A stretch of 64,000 bases of DNA. It comes from Ulota crispa (lineage: Eukaryota; Streptophyta; Bryopsida; Orthotrichales; Orthotrichaceae). This document shows positions 25,196 through 31,969 of the stretch, piece by piece. The notes below the pieces were generated by a model, which saw only the letters and a list, made by a program, of their open reading frames with translations, was not told the DNA's origin and did no database searches. Every line of letters begins with the position of its first letter. The first letter of the stretch is position 1. The position numbers and the translations under genes were made by a program. The stretch covers positions 8,372,501 through 8,436,500 of the forward strand of contig OY987246.1 in the NCBI GenBank assembly GCA_963920765.1, in the 5' to 3' direction.

Positions 25196-25423
25196 CCAAG
25201 TGGTGGCACTGTGCTTTTACAAGCCTCATGCTTTCTGATTACTTGGCAGATATTGCCTTAGATTTTATTGTTTTTGTTGTTTGGTAGACATAGCCTTAGA
25301 TTTTGTTGTTTTGAATTGAATTTGGTCATGTCTCATGGATTCTATTTCCAAACCATTTTTGAATATGACTTTTGTGCTTTGTCCTTATTTATCCTTTTTT
25401 GTGTCAAAAAAAAAAGACATATT
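25196..25423. other. Unclassified gap with a local 40-bp duplication
   Basis: catagccttagattttgttg recurs in slightly altered form at 25250-25312. No gene. Confidence 0.4.
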
Positions 25424-27489
25424 CTAATTGGGACAACGCTATTTGGTGAGCATAACTTGGTGAGCACAGAGCGGCAAGCCAAGAATATGTGAGTAGTGAG
25501 CCAAGATTTGATGGGCAGCAAAAAAATTTGGAGAAAAAATAAATAAATTAGAAAATGACTCATTTTTGTATAGAGATGACATGTTTTTTTTAAATTTTTA
25601 TGTTGTATAATATTTTTCCTATGACTACGGAAACTGAAAGCCCTATGACCATGGGCAGATAGCTATGGATAATTGGCTTAGTCATTGATGAAAAATACTT
25701 GAGATGGTTCTTTGTGTACATTTAGGAACACAAAGTAATATGGCAAAAAAAACATATTATAGATAAATCACTAATTGAATGATGAAGAAAATGACTAATA
25801 AGAGGTAGCCTCCACACATGAATCACCTTGAAATATATGTTGCACAAAAGCAACTATCAAATACAAAGATGCATGGTAGGTGTCATCAACAGGCGTTTCA
25901 CCTCCAAAAACTAAAGGTATGTGCATATATAAAAGGGTCGCTTTCAGAGTCTACCTTACAAACTATGGTGAATAGTGCATTGACCACATTTGCCAAGCGC
26001 CCCTATAAGCATCTCTTTCAAGTACAGACATGTGCACTCAAGAAACAACTAAATGGTAAGCAAGTACTGCTTTATCTTGTTTCCTAATTCTGATTGCAAC
26101 ATAACTATGCACCCAAATCTTGAATGAGGAATGAGGGTGACCTTTTGAATTTGACCACAAATCAAATTAGCTAATGCACAATTATTTGATTGATTGGTCG
26201 TACGCCCCTTTAAACAACATTGTAAAGGCTTTCTAGACCTTGTTTTAGGGTGCTCATCTGGAAGTGCAGGAGATGGGACTCTGACAAGTCAATGATTACA
26301 GTCTTACTGATGATTGGCCAAAAATATGTCTTAGAGAAATCTCTTGGCATTGAGGGAGTTGAAATCTAGCCTGCTCAAATGCTAGAATCTCCTTGGTGCT
26401 CAAATTTGTACCAAATTTCACTGGCCAGATTTCCGGTTTGTACCTTTGACATAGCGATTGATGTTACATTGCAGAAATACAATTTGCATCACTTCCACCT
26501 TGTTCTCTTTGAAGTTTGTCATGCCGCCAGTATATGTTGGAGCTGCTGTATTACAATTTTGTTGCACAATTTGGCTGTGCACTTCTTCTTTGTATTGACT
26601 TGTTGTGCAAAGCATGCCTTTGCTAAACAGCTAAATAAACAAGCTATATGGCATTTGCTCTTATCACATGCAGTCTCCATAATAGCAATTACATGACCTA
26701 TAGGAAGTGGAAGAAAATTATTGGTTGCAAAACCTAAAACAAACTCAGAAGGCAAACCATGTGAAGGATAATCTTCAGATATATGCTATAAAATGCTATT
26801 GTTAGCATGCACAATTGTCCTTGGAATTCCAACTCAAGGTTGTGCGTAGTTCACTTTGTTTAGATGGTGGGATTCTGACTCTGACCCATGAGGAATGTGG
26901 GCCTTTTGCTTCAAGGACCCAAAAACTTCCTCCCCTTCAAAGTGTGGCTGATGAGTGCAAAACTCGCTTGCACCGGGAACTTGATCCATCATGACATTTA
27001 GTCTTGCAGGGTCTTATGATTGGCAAAACAATGAGCGGCACGTATTTGCAACTCCTCCGTACTTGGCCCTTGTCCACCATGGTCACCTTGCAAAATTGAT
27101 TATATTGTACAACTTGTAGAGAAGCACAAACATAATCTTCCACAGTTGCAACATACAGATCAGGACCACAATTTCCTGATTGCTAGAGCCACTTGTTTTG
27201 GATTGACTCCATTAAATTACAAGATGGCATCTCAACACATTTGTCATCACTTAGTTTCTGCTGGAAAAACATTAGAATATTAGTAAACATCCAAATGAAA
27301 AAGCCAAGAAGAAGATTTTGAGAAGAAGCTAAATTACAAGTAGGTCTTTCAGCTGAAGAGGACACTTTAGGGTCTACAGCAGTAGGGTTCATCATTATGT
27401 ACAAGACCACAAGGGACAGCGTGAGGATAGCTACAAGGGTGGCTTAGTTTGATGTCACGACTTCTAGATTTCTAAGAAGGGTCTCAAGG

Positions 27490-27720
27490 CAGAGAGGGTT
27501 GGCCTTGGCATCAAAGTTGTGCACCAAGTGAGGACATTTGTCAATTAAGGAAGGGTCTTGAGGACGAGACCGCTGGCCTTGGCATGAAAGTTGTGCACCA
27601 AGTCAGGACATCCGACAATTATGGAAGTGTCTTGTGGCCAAGAAGGCTCGTCCTCACATCTAAATTGTGTGCCCACTGCTAAACGAGAACATTTGGCAAT
27701 GAAGGGAGTATCTTTTAGCC
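27490..27720 (-). repeat. 72-bp tandem repeat, about three copies, within the transposase-like frame
   Basis: Matching positions recur at 27499, 27572 and 27644, a 72-73 bp period. On the minus strand this is a 24-residue repeat with a conserved Cys-Pro and an LVHNFxAKA motif. A period divisible by three and an open minus-strand frame suggest the repeat was once coding. Function unknown. Confidence 0.6.
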
Positions 27721-28832
27721 GAGGCAACTAACCTATATGGTTAGATCTTAAAGCCATTGGGAAAACATAACGGATGCGCTTCAAGGTAATACAAATATTT
27801 GGCTAATAGAATCATAGACAAGAAAGAAGGCAAAATTAAAGTAAAGTTGGAGGGACCAAATTACATACCAAATGCATGAAACCACCCCACTGGCGATAAT
27901 AAAAATGCTAGAATGCCAACCACAAGTCAAGACAAGGAATTGCCTCATGGGTTGCTGCGCCGGAGGAAAGCCACCACGCTCGGATTGCGTAATATCTTGA
28001 TTGCACTTCGGCAAGCGTAGGTGAGTTCTTGTATTGTTTGCAAAGCTGACGATGTTGGTGTTGCAGGTCAAAACAAATATTTGCCTTTGTGTATTTTTTT
28101 AAAGACTGCACCTAGTAGAATAAATAAGTGCGCTCACGGTCCAGCATGGGAACTTTTGGATCACCAAAATCGTAAACTTGGCAAACATCATTCTAATTTT
28201 CTTGGGCGCTGTCTGCCTTGAACCCTTTAGAATTTGCAAGGGAGACACCATTTTGGTAGCAAACTTTGTTCAAATTCTTCCAAAAGAGTATTTGAGCTAC
28301 AACGTCTTTTGATTGCATATCACAAAGAGCAATAGTCTGCACCCGACATAATGTGGAATCATACACATGACATGCCATGTGAGTTACCTAGAATCTAGCA
28401 ACTTGGATTACATTTAAAACTGCTGCAAGATCTAGACGTGCCTCTTGAACCAAAATTAGCATCTTGGATTCTAGAGATTTCAACTTAGAAAGAGAAAAAT
28501 AAGTATTTGGTTTTGCAGGGTTTGTATAGATACTAAGAGATAGTGATTTTGAATTTCTGTCATTGATGCTTATAAATTTAGGCAGGCTGAAAACCAATGT
28601 CATGACTTTTGGCTCGGAAGTGACGCTCTCATACACAAGATAGGATTTGTGTTGTTAAAAGTTGTGCCACAAAAGGAGGATAGACAAGCTGATCCAGGCA
28701 ACGCCTAATGTATTTCATGACAAGGTAGATCTTGCTTGTAATTCTCCAAATAAAATTTGAGCGTGATTTAGTAATGATCAAATGTGCAGCACAACTTTGA
28801 GCACCATGGGGCTGCTCTTGTGCCCGAGACAA
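27545..28832 (-). pseudogene. Decayed transposase-like gene (RNase H-fold/MULE-like), stops in frame
   Basis: One minus-strand frame can be read from 28636 down to 27545, broken mainly by TAG codons at 28388, 28193, 28112 and 27908. The protein segments are gene-like: MACHVYDSTLCRVQTIALCD, then QSKDVVAQILFWKNLNKV, GFKADSAQEN, a Lys/Gln-rich helical stretch, then AIRAWWLSSGAATHEA and, across a stop, YRQWGGFMHLV. A strand-turn-strand followed by an Asp in KADSAQ suits the DDE core of MULE or related transposases. An N-terminal part (28629-28832) lies in another frame, so at least one frameshift is present. The low-coordinate end carries three copies of a 24-residue repeat. I recall similar proteins in seed-free plants, but family assignment needs a profile search. 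Not functional as it stands. Confidence 0.5.
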
Positions 28833-28998
28833 GGTCTCTGTGCTTTAAAGTTGTGCAACAATTAAATAAAATCGAGTTGTTAATGAAATATGACACTTTG
28901 GAATTAGCAAAGTTTGAGTAATTTCTCATAACTTTTCACCTCAAGTCATTTTCTTCTGGTATATCTGATCTTTGCACAAGTTTAGAAGCAAGAGGGCC

Positions 28999-29620
28999 AG
29001 TCTCGTGAACAAGATGGTCTCTCAGCACCAAAGTCCAGGATCATTTGCATTACCTACCGCTAGCAGGTACACGATTGGGAGTTAAGTTTGGCACTCTCGT
29101 GAGCAAGAGAGGGGCAGGGAACCTTTCAAGTCTTGGAGCAACTATTGCCAACTAGTCCCGATGTGGCACGACTTGGCAAGCCGGAGGACCACTCTTGTGT
29201 GTGAGAGAGGGATCCAAAACCTTGAGGTTGTAATCTGCCTCTTGCCTGCCACTTCCACCGTCGTACGAAGTGGCACGCCGGAGGATCACTCTCTTGTGCG
29301 AGAGAGGGGTTCTGAACCTTCAAGTCGTGGACCGCCTCTAGCTTGCCACTTCCAACGTGGCACAACATGGGAAGCTGGAGGATTACTCCCGCGTGCAAGA
29401 GAGGGGTCTAGAACCTTCAAGTCTTGGACCCTCTTTTGCCTGCCACTTCCGCCTCATCAAGACTCAGCTCTTTGAAATCTCACTCTCGTTTACAAGAGAA
29501 GGATCTAGAACCTTCAAATCTTGGAGCACATCTTGCCTGCAATCTCCACCATGGCACAACCTGGCTCTCTAGGAGATCACTTTTGTGCGCAAGAGAAGAG
29601 CCGCGGGGGTTCAAGACCTT
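28999..29620. repeat. 97-bp tandem array, six to seven degenerate units
   Basis: The landmark cactctcgtgxgcaagag recurs at about 28999, 29092, 29190, 29287, 29383, 29481 and 29578, giving steps of 93-98 bp. Units also share cttgcctgccacttcc and a gtggcacxacttgg segment. GC content is higher than the surroundings. The array sits between the two pseudogenes of the 6.5-kb transposon. Long open frames cross it on both strands, which is a by-product of its composition; I do not call a gene. Confidence 0.75.
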
Positions 29621-29859
29621 CTGCTTTTGTGGGTCAAGTGGTCAATTTTGGACCCACTATGATAGCATAGTTGATAAGAGTTCAAGGACGGCCTGACTGC
29701 CAATGGCATCGTCTTAGGATAGTGTGTCCATGTATGCAATTTTGTCTAGCAAAATAGGAACTAGAGTATAAGCATGGCCAAAATGTAGGAGTGCAGCAAA
29801 TCATTTTGATGTTATGTACTCATTGCAACAAATTTGTTGTGATTGCAAAATCAAGGTAC

Positions 29860-31271
29860 CCATGCTTGAGTGTTTGATGGAGTTCCACGTTTGAAGAATG
29901 GTTGTGATCTTGTCATTATGGATCTTCTAGATGACCTTCCAATTCCAAGGCTTTCTGGACCTAATTCTGAAGTTCCATTATGGAATGTCAAGAAACTTGG
30001 GTATCTAGAAAGTATTTTGGATTTTGATGCAATTTTTTTACACAACTATGGAGTTGTGATATTATTTCACGCCTCCTTTAATGAGATGGATCATTGTATC
30101 AAGCGCTTACTCAAGACATTTGGGTTCAAGTTACACAAACAGTGGTTTGGAACAAACTAAATGCATCTCACAAATGCAAGTGACTATGCAGAAACAGTAA
30201 GTGGATTCTTCTATTGATTTTTCAATGTTTGAATTTAAGGTATTCTTCTACATGCTTGGATACTAGCAACTTCTCCTATGTACTTGCAGTCACTTTGATT
30301 TACTACCAATTTATTTGTGCATAATCTAAAAGTGCTACTGCGGTCCAACTTTCAATTCAGAGAAATCCCGAGGCTAAGACTGCATGTATTAATGTTGGCA
30401 AAGACAACATTCTCTTAACTATGTCACAAAGGATACACAAGTTCATTTCAAGGGTCAGCCCTTCAAGGGTGCATGTAAAAAGGACGCGGTCCTTTTGCAG
30501 CTGCTAGTCCAGGCTACTACTCTCTTTGAAGATGTTGTGATTGATAGTACAGCTGCATGCAGTAGGTTATTTACTAATCTTCTATATTTTATGTCTTTTG
30601 ATATATTCTATATTTGTAGTATGTGGTTAATTTACCAACGTTTGCTTGTTGTTGTTTGCATGAGGTAGCATTCAGGCTTGTCATGACTCAAGTCGGCGCA
30701 TAGTTGCCATGGAGGAGGACACGCTTTGTTTTTTACAATCATTTTTTGCCAATGGCGTGAGAGGCTGCAGTTGGTTCTGCTAAGAGGCAACAAGTATCTT
30801 CCTTGACTCCTTCAGGTGATTCCAAGGAGGCAAATTTTGACAAAGAAGATGTACATGTTTTCCTCAATCAATTCTATAAGTAAGTTTCTCCCTTCCCTTA
30901 CTAATGTCTTTTCTTTTTTGAATCTTTATCATGTAAATTTGTTCTTGATCCTAAATTCTAAACCATGTTTTTACAGCCCAAGCATAGAGAACAATTTTGT
31001 GATGCCTTGTTATGCAAAGGCCACAGCCCAAGTCATGGAAAAATATGGTGTCGTAGAAAAAAAATTGAGGCCTTTTCGTGGAGATTCTAGAATGCGTCGC
31101 TTTCTCCAAATTTTTGCAATGGAGCTTGATTCAAGCAAGGTGGAAGCTTTTGTGGAGGCTAGCTTGAGTGTTAGAGGAATCTCTTTGTCAAGTTCCCTAT
31201 CACTTTTAGTAGTGAACTTGGACAGCAATTCTGATGATTTGGAGACTGTTCCTTTGTTAGCCTCATATTAG
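29860..31271 (+). pseudogene. Decayed intron-containing gene resembling a beta-class N4/N6 DNA amino-methyltransferase
   Basis: Coding-quality segments run in order. The first, 29873-30157, contains GCDLVIMDLL and a later strand NYGVVILFHA followed by GFKLHKQWFGTN. The second, about 30360-30561, holds a KKDAVLLQLLVQATTLFEDV block then IDSTAAC. The third, 30665-30879, begins SIQACHDSSRRIVAMEED and ends in a basic SAKRQQ tract. The fourth is 30977-31271, ending at TAG. Introns 30562-30664 and 30880-30976 are GT-AG and keep the frame. The order matches the permuted beta class (motif IV, then X, then I): DLVIMD for motif IV, KKDAVLLQLL for X, DSTAAC...RRIVAMEED for I. The catalytic [DNS]PP[YF] motif is not intact: MDLLDD stands in its place. 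A TAA after WFGTN and frameshifts near 30430 and 30760 break the gene. The C-terminal 97 residues match no family I know. The methyltransferase identity is inference from motifs. Confidence 0.48.
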
Positions 31272-31969
31272 AGAGTTCAAAAACTCTCTTATTTCGTTTT
31301 CAATGAGTTTTTTTGGGTGTCTCTAACTATATATTGTATGCTCTCATTTGATTTCTTCTTTATTTCTTGTGTTAATCACTAGTTTGGAAACTTGCACTTG
31401 CTCATTGGAACTAAGTCGTATTACTTCTTCTTTGCTCTTTAATTTTCTTAGCTTTGTTAATTTGGTGATTTTTTCTTCTAAAGCTTGTTCTTGTATAAGG
31501 TCTAATATATATATATATGTTTTTCTATTTTACTCACTTCAATATCCCAAATATGCTCACAACCACTATTATGGGCTAATTTTTAAATTCTATATCTTTA
31601 CTCTTCACCATTGTTTGTATGCGATTTGTCCATTTTATACGAATGATTTTTCCCTAATTTCTACCCCAAACCTTACAATTTCTTTGGCTTACATCTTCTA
31701 TTTTAATGCCCACCCCAAGCCCACGCTTTTAGGTACCACCTTCCACGATTTGAAGAATTCCATTTTTATAAACAATTTATTCAAATAAACCACTTGCACA
31801 ATCCAAATTTTTGGGCATAGATCATCTAAGTCTTTGCCCAAAGTTTTTCCGCGGTTTTAGGTACTTCTATCCATGGGTATAGGATTTTCATAACATTTTC
31901 TCAATAATTTAGGCTCACGGCTCTGTGCTCTGTGCTCTATGCTCACTAAATAGCAATCCCCCCCTAATT

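Follow-up and report, generated by a model that had tools for sequence, protein, structure and literature searches.

How does a moss genome come to hold, between a single pair of inverted ends, the remains of a transposase-like gene and of a gene resembling DNA methyltransferases, and do the two belong together? This question is raised by an interval of about 6.5 kb in a window of 64,000 nucleotides from Ulota crispa (G000:C5:8372501-8436500; the window is the whole stretch of DNA analysed here), in a genome of 275 Mb and 157 contigs, with C1-C11 ranging from 41.4 to 6.3 Mb. An initial annotation had taken the interval for a transposon with a methyltransferase-like gene as its cargo. We find that the window copy is a shortened and decayed derivative of a lineage of DNA transposons whose insertions produce 9-bp target duplications, and that related elements of ~13-14 kb hold, between like ends, two divergent multi-exon genes, one transposase-like and the other methyltransferase-related. 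The transposase and the second gene recur as a unit; the second gene does lie within the element ends, but it is a recurrent partner (89 divergent pairs) rather than occasional cargo.

With the transposase exon of a diverged relative (L046) as query, and the best 150 of 162 candidates scored, we recovered at least 150 matches genome-wide, and the methyltransferase exon of the window recovered 121. Merging of matches within 3 kb left 129 transposase and 116 methyltransferase loci, and the counts of loci and pairs given here hold among the matches listed. A methyltransferase locus lies within 30 kb of 90 of the 129 transposase loci, in divergent orientation in 89 cases, convergent in one and on the same strand in none; random placement of the loci in 1000 shuffles gave a mean of 4.2 and a maximum of 12 pairs against the 89 divergent ones observed. 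Of these 89, 15 have the gap of 1.3-1.7 kb that marks the window subfamily; in most of the other 74 the genes are 7-14 kb apart (range 5.1-21.9). Three long elements are bounded at both ends, namely C5:23222865-23235733 (12.9 kb, duplication CTTCAAAGT/CCTCAAAGT), C10:1471220-1485388 (14.2 kb, AACAATTAG/GACAATCAG) and C1:32845275-32859237 (14.0 kb, TGTTTTGCC/TATTTTGCC). Each of them has matches to the transposase, N-terminal and methyltransferase exons, and their second gene is longer than that of the window; a further element on C9 has a visible right end, its left end not having been found. The search for intact copies with both termini that the initial annotation had proposed was thus rewarded in part: other, longer copies hold both genes and a 9-bp duplication, and stops occur in the transposase exon of all three, none being demonstrably intact. 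An N-terminal exon precedes the methyltransferase exon on its own strand at 82 of the 116 methyltransferase loci (it is downstream at one and on the opposite strand at one, and 32 have none within 12 kb). It lies upstream at none of the 17 loci of the window subfamily, one of which has a downstream neighbour, and this subfamily is therefore an internally shortened form.

In the window the element extends from 25430 to 31960, as delimited by cross-copy comparison of ends and by the ends and gene regions that 15 loci share. Its left terminal inverted repeat (25430..25493) starts with GGGACAACGCTATTTGGTGAGCA and contains GTGAGC-type subrepeats, and the right one (31900..31960) ends with GCTCACTAAATAGCAATCCC, both placed from the sequence and the end comparison; both ends are rich in GTGAGC / GAGCACAGAG subrepeats. 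The long inverted ends and the two divergent gene remnants of the initial annotation are both borne out. The repeats are imperfect over ~55 bp (25438-25493 against 31900-31954) and reach a local score of 35, the best of 300 shuffles being 28. The transposase-like remnant occupies the minus strand (~25.9-28.9 kb) and the methyltransferase-like one the plus strand (29.87-31.27 kb); each of them is broken, and the second gene here lacks its N-terminal domain. On the minus strand, tblastn with an exon of L045 locates a remnant of the C-terminal transposase exon at 25892..26201; of a SWIM-like CxC...CxH it has the CxC half, and the CxH half is not seen. The core exon remnant, with three stops, lies at 27866..28279 (match C5:8400366-8400779, E 7e-49, 56% identity; GFMADxAQANW...CLFHW in relatives). 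On the plus strand, exon search, the alignment of relatives and profile comparison identify a methyltransferase-like exon with the motif IV-V region (DLVIMDLLDDLPIP...WN...LHNYGVVILFH) followed by a stop (29870..30157). The first part of the motif X/I region (QPFKGACKKDAVLLQLLVQATTLFEDVVIDSTAACS, 30456..30563) and the continuation of motif I past an intron (IQACHDSSRRIVAMEEDTL, 30670..30729) were read by eye against relatives, the hhalign comparison of this region having used the exons of relatives and not that of the window.

The same arrangement recurs across the genome. A 5' probe of 301 bases, with the best 40 of 74 candidates scored, gave at least 41 matches, of which 16 are long (80-100% identity); a 3' probe of 321 bases gave 21, of which 18 are long; and the plus and minus gene regions were searched separately. 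At least 15 loci, the window included, hold the two ends and the two gene regions with order and orientation unchanged, in matched pieces ~83-94% identical to the window, which upholds the view of a transposon that carries the second gene inside its ends. The initial annotation had also asked whether the genes lie outside these ends, or the ends occur apart from each other, in other copies: 15 of 19 loci keep both ends and both genes together, and four show one end or a part only (C8:15.19 Mb with no 5' match, C8:6.31-6.34 Mb, which is split, C4:14.16 Mb with a 3' part and C3:6.94 Mb with the 5' end only).

Flank scoring places the target-site duplication of the window copy at 25421..25429 (ATTCTAATT) and 31961..31969 (CCCCTAATT). 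The CTAATT which the initial annotation had reported on both sides is real (25424-25429 and 31964-31969); it is, however, part of a degenerate duplication whose length across copies is 9 bp. We scored 14 elements, comprising 11 of the 15 window-type loci and the three long elements; C2:16.87 Mb was left out for want of a recognisable right end, and C4:8.60, C3:4.80 and C11:2.96 Mb because a flank or end falls outside the stretch. Their own flank pairs match at 9, 9, 9, 9, 8, 8, 8, 8, 8, 7, 7, 7, 7 and 6 of 9 bases, that is, 13 of 14 at 7 or more, whereas among 182 mismatched flank pairs three reach 7, 16 reach 6 and none exceeds 7. For own and control pairs equally, seven offsets of the right flank were tried. 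The 11 window-type boundaries came from the end alignment; the left boundaries of the three long elements were set by eye with both flanks visible, so the scoring favours those elements. The fraction of matching bases persists to 9 bases and drops beyond, and four of the 14 elements have perfect 9-mers (e.g. GTGCTTGCA, GGTGTGTGC, TACTCTCTT, GCACCCCAG). The window copy has the weakest duplication, and its 6 of 9 would not stand out alone because mismatched pairs also reach 6. Taken together, the 9-bp duplications support insertion by a 9-bp staggered cut.

What, then, is the second gene? Read exon by exon in the relatives, it opens with an N-terminal exon bearing ICDGNHR (alignment A2, 18 sequences), next to which comes a charged stretch; the third part is an exon of the form VDLxxxDxPExLPxPxIS...WN...FxFAxxxLHDDGA (alignment A1, 20 sequences), and the last, beyond further exons, reads ...VVDCTxxxG and then ASIxACRAAGRxxVALEDD. 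For hhalign we used as reference YhdJ and seven phage beta-class methyltransferases, the phage locus L122, where the annotation splits the methylase in two, being set aside for that reason. The motif IV-V exon matches this methyltransferase profile with a probability of 67.7% (E 4.9e-5) and the motif X-I exon with 92.3% (E 5.5e-7). The two exons are collinear on the profile (columns 24-85 and 194-254) in the permuted order IV...X-I, none of 60 column-shuffled queries reaches the score for either exon, and control comparisons with MULE (Mutator-like element) and transposase profiles stay under 1%. The X-I alignment has nine rows, several of them partial, typed from outputs, and in four the exons were joined by eye. 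These profile matches indicate that the C-terminal part of the second gene is related to the beta-class (permuted) DNA amino-methyltransferases, and the methyltransferase-like identity given to it initially is to that extent upheld.

Other comparisons of the second gene were less informative. Pfam recognised none of 10 window open reading frames, and nothing among these and the exons of relatives rose above the curated cut-off; below it, "Methyltransferase small domain" was met in one of 20 methyltransferase exons (E 0.13). Sequence searches of the PDB gave weak scattered matches only (best E 0.13). Protein relatives P0001-P0013 (E down to 2e-40), 12 found with the methyltransferase exon alignment and one with the N-terminal exon, come from public genomes or metagenomes, so that relatives of both exons exist in other sources; scans of viral contigs gave 41 pattern matches each, none of them confirmed. 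The DGNHR of the N-terminal exon aligns with the DGSRR of phage ParB, but its score is no better than noise, being reached by 18 of 60 shuffles, and ParB homology of this exon is not supported against five phage ParB sequences. A first reading as an FtsJ/RrmJ 2'-O-methyltransferase was dropped, without a test of its own, once the motif X/I exon was recognised.

Ratios of nonsynonymous to synonymous substitution (dN/dS) were obtained by the Nei-Gojobori method on groups picked by similarity, with some copies picked for open frames. For the methyltransferase exon, seven diverged copies gave 0.13, 0.19, 0.20 and 0.29 (the four of 21 pairs with estimable dS, 0.70-0.98), four other copies gave 0.30-0.44 in five pairs and 1.17 in the closest pair, and five close copies gave 0.40-0.90 in 10 pairs. 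The transposase exon gave 0.14, 0.17 and 0.49 in the three of 66 pairs under the dS cut-off. These ratios fit selection on active lineages with decay following insertion, and by this measure the second gene shows signs of retention by selection. Methyltransferase exons that are nearly alike are found at L061, L063, L068, L072 and L091 (contigs C7, C9, C4, C9 and C1), and their dS of 0.07-0.12 suggests comparatively recent activity.

We consider it probable that these elements form a cut-and-paste transposon lineage in which the second gene supplies a methyltransferase-like accessory factor whose target is the DNA of the element itself, the last point being suggested by the family of the protein together with its standing pairing. 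The transposase would bind the GTGAGC subrepeats of the ends and move the element in cut-and-paste fashion; the methyltransferase-like protein would act on the element DNA, most likely by countering host silencing or by controlling transposition, and would either add a methyl group or, with its altered motif IV, bind S-adenosylmethionine (SAM) or DNA without canonical catalysis. VANC in VANDAL elements and the Dam methylation of bacterial insertion sequence elements are analogues for such an accessory role; VANC itself is not known to be related to methyltransferases.

Several observations weigh against this reading. Thirty-nine of the 129 transposase loci and 29 of the 116 methyltransferase loci are unpaired. 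Canonical motif IV, [DNS]PP[YFW], occurs in none of 24 genomic and none of 12 other sequences; it takes the form D-x-P-[EKD] in 13 of the 24 and 10 of the 12, and the rest differ further. This makes catalysis doubtful and ordinary N6/N4 methylation uncertain, and the designation of the product as a base-modifying enzyme in the initial annotation is left doubtful. As to selection, the three lowest methyltransferase dN/dS values share three copies, close copies range from 0.40 to 1.17, the pooled ratios of nonsynonymous to synonymous differences per site (pN/pS) are 0.63, 0.50 and 0.33, 17 of 37 methyltransferase exon pairs give no ratio, and the dN/dS values carry no significance test. The motif IV exon of P0005, modelled with AlphaFold2 (113 residues, with 12 further rows including that of the window), shows strand 15-19, helix 44-55, strand 61-65 and helix 70-82, an order that would fit half a Rossmann fold; at its low confidence (mean predicted local distance difference test 56.7, predicted template modelling score 0.47) the model is too weak to count and decides nothing.

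It is possible, though we rate it below the reading just given, that the product of the second gene descends from a methyltransferase but has lost catalysis; it would bind DNA as the partner of the transposase and assist transposition, much as MURB may do for MuDR, and would play no part in modification or silencing. Such a protein would suit both the pairing with the transposase and the absence of canonical motif IV from all 36 sequences, yet with dN/dS between diverged copies below 0.5; against it, motif X/I, the SAM-binding region, can still be recognised, a sign that SAM binding matters, and the copies are too decayed for single residues to be judged. Mutator-like elements often pick up host gene fragments, and a one-off capture of this kind, with the second gene as a functionless passenger, would agree with the many broken copies and with the relaxed ratios of close pairs (up to 1.17). 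We think it improbable in view of the 89 divergent pairs, of which 74 lack the short spacing seen in the window subfamily and 15 have it, and of dN/dS values down to 0.13 between diverged copies, while a host gene may be present among the 29 unpaired methyltransferase loci. The odd internal repeats and broken genes of the window copy might suggest that two unrelated elements, one nested in the other or lying side by side, only look like a single one here. This is hardly credible, for the same arrangement lies between the same ends at 15 loci, and three longer elements flanked by 9-bp duplications also show it.

A wider form of the accessory-factor reading is more tentative. It would see here a plant DNA transposon lineage, possibly a superfamily, defined by a standing divergent pair of genes. 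One would encode a transposase that known family models do not reach; the other would encode a methyltransferase protein derived from the beta class, with motif IV remade and an N-terminal domain like ParB, which would go back to bacteria or phages and would shield the DNA of its own element from host silencing by marking or masking it. If true, a plant DNA transposon that keeps a methyltransferase-derived partner through deep divergence would be a testable arms-race system, in which one can ask whether the protein modifies or unsilences the element that encodes it, and a possible route for bacterial-type DNA modification domains into plant nuclei, and the changed motif IV raises a well-defined question for biochemistry.

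The element is Mutator-like in its ends and duplication, and we assign it to no superfamily. Long terminal inverted repeats are a Mutator trait that some groups lack, and many groups have a SWIM zinc finger. With MuDR and VANDAL it shares the 9-bp duplication, inverted ends, a second gene beside the transposase and, in several copies, CxC...CxH in the last transposase exon; it differs from MULEs in that PF10551 is not detected at its transposase, which scores at noise against MULE domains. The core exon of relatives (FKGFMADxAQANW...R.CLFHW.QSLEKHT) we liken by eye to the second catalytic D and C..H of Mutator, the last exon to a SWIM finger and an upstream exon (CK.CK...GTHSH) to a WRKY/GCM1-type finger, presumed resemblances that the tests do not confirm. 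The MULE DDE domain PF10551 has 71 matches in the genome, the nearest 29 kb from any of the at least 150 transposase matches, and is thus undetected, which is no proof of absence. MULE homology is not supported by hhalign against 11 MULE domains of the same genome (0.4%, 9 of 60 shuffles reaching the score). This genome does hold Pfam-recognisable MULE transposases, without detectable similarity to the transposase exon of the element. Pfam SWIM appears in one of four C-terminal exons scanned, below cut-off (E 0.88), the strongest sub-cut-off match is Abhydrolase_2 in one transposase exon (E 0.001), and a protein search with a transposase exon found no homologue.

Published systems offer partial parallels. 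MULEs have 8-11 bp duplications, SWIM fingers and second open reading frames, and the same source lists SET as the epigenetic enzyme in its table, "methyltransf" occurring 0 times in its main text (PMC6446971). Lanisha / EnSpm-type (CMCT) elements have 2-5 bp target duplications and, in most cases, CA..TG termini (PMC12730594), and the element differs from them in its 9-bp duplication and other termini. VANDAL elements encode an accessory protein, VANC, with an anti-silencing role (PMC13317346); the likeness lies in an element-encoded accessory gene, and counter-silencing is proposed by analogy for the second gene. DNA methyltransferases are carried by retrotransposons, namely the DNA methyltransferase (DNMT) elements of dinoflagellates and charophytes and DIRS elements with Dam-like enzymes, and DNA transposons encoding DNMT are mentioned from marine viruses (PMC5890265). 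The DNMT and DIRS elements resemble the present family in bearing a DNA methyltransferase gene, but they are retrotransposons with C5 or Dam-like enzymes, whereas the window family is a DNA transposon with a beta-class-related domain. Phytophthora MuDR and HarbingerS elements with SET are DNA transposons with an epigenetic enzyme beside the transposase (PMC12730594) and differ in enzymes and hosts; TET/JBP enzymes are carried by fungal DNA transposons (among PMC12730594, PMC5890265, PMC6446971 and PMC13317346). With the beta-class amino-methyltransferases (YhdJ, phage N-4/N-6 methylases) the second gene shares the motif order IV then X-I, both parts profile-matched, and differs in lacking canonical motif IV, in its intron-split coding sequence and in its extra N-terminal domain. 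Open-licence PubMed Central full text, a scope outside which lie subscription papers and Repbase, contains no description that we found of a plant DNA transposon with a beta-class-related gene.

Two lesser features concern the ends and the middle of the element. Elsewhere in the genome, the probe that covers 25430-25493 also gave at least 25 short matches at the terminus, ~44-116 bases long; these may be small non-autonomous elements or the ends of related families. Between the two genes of the window copy (28998..29611) lie seven copies of a 34-base motif at a spacing of 94-98 bases, four of them in a 135-base register, at the place where divergent genes would share a promoter; among assembled stretches, 14 of the 17 from the window subfamily have these spaced repeats, as against 0 of 10 from other families, some of those 10 not extending over this region.

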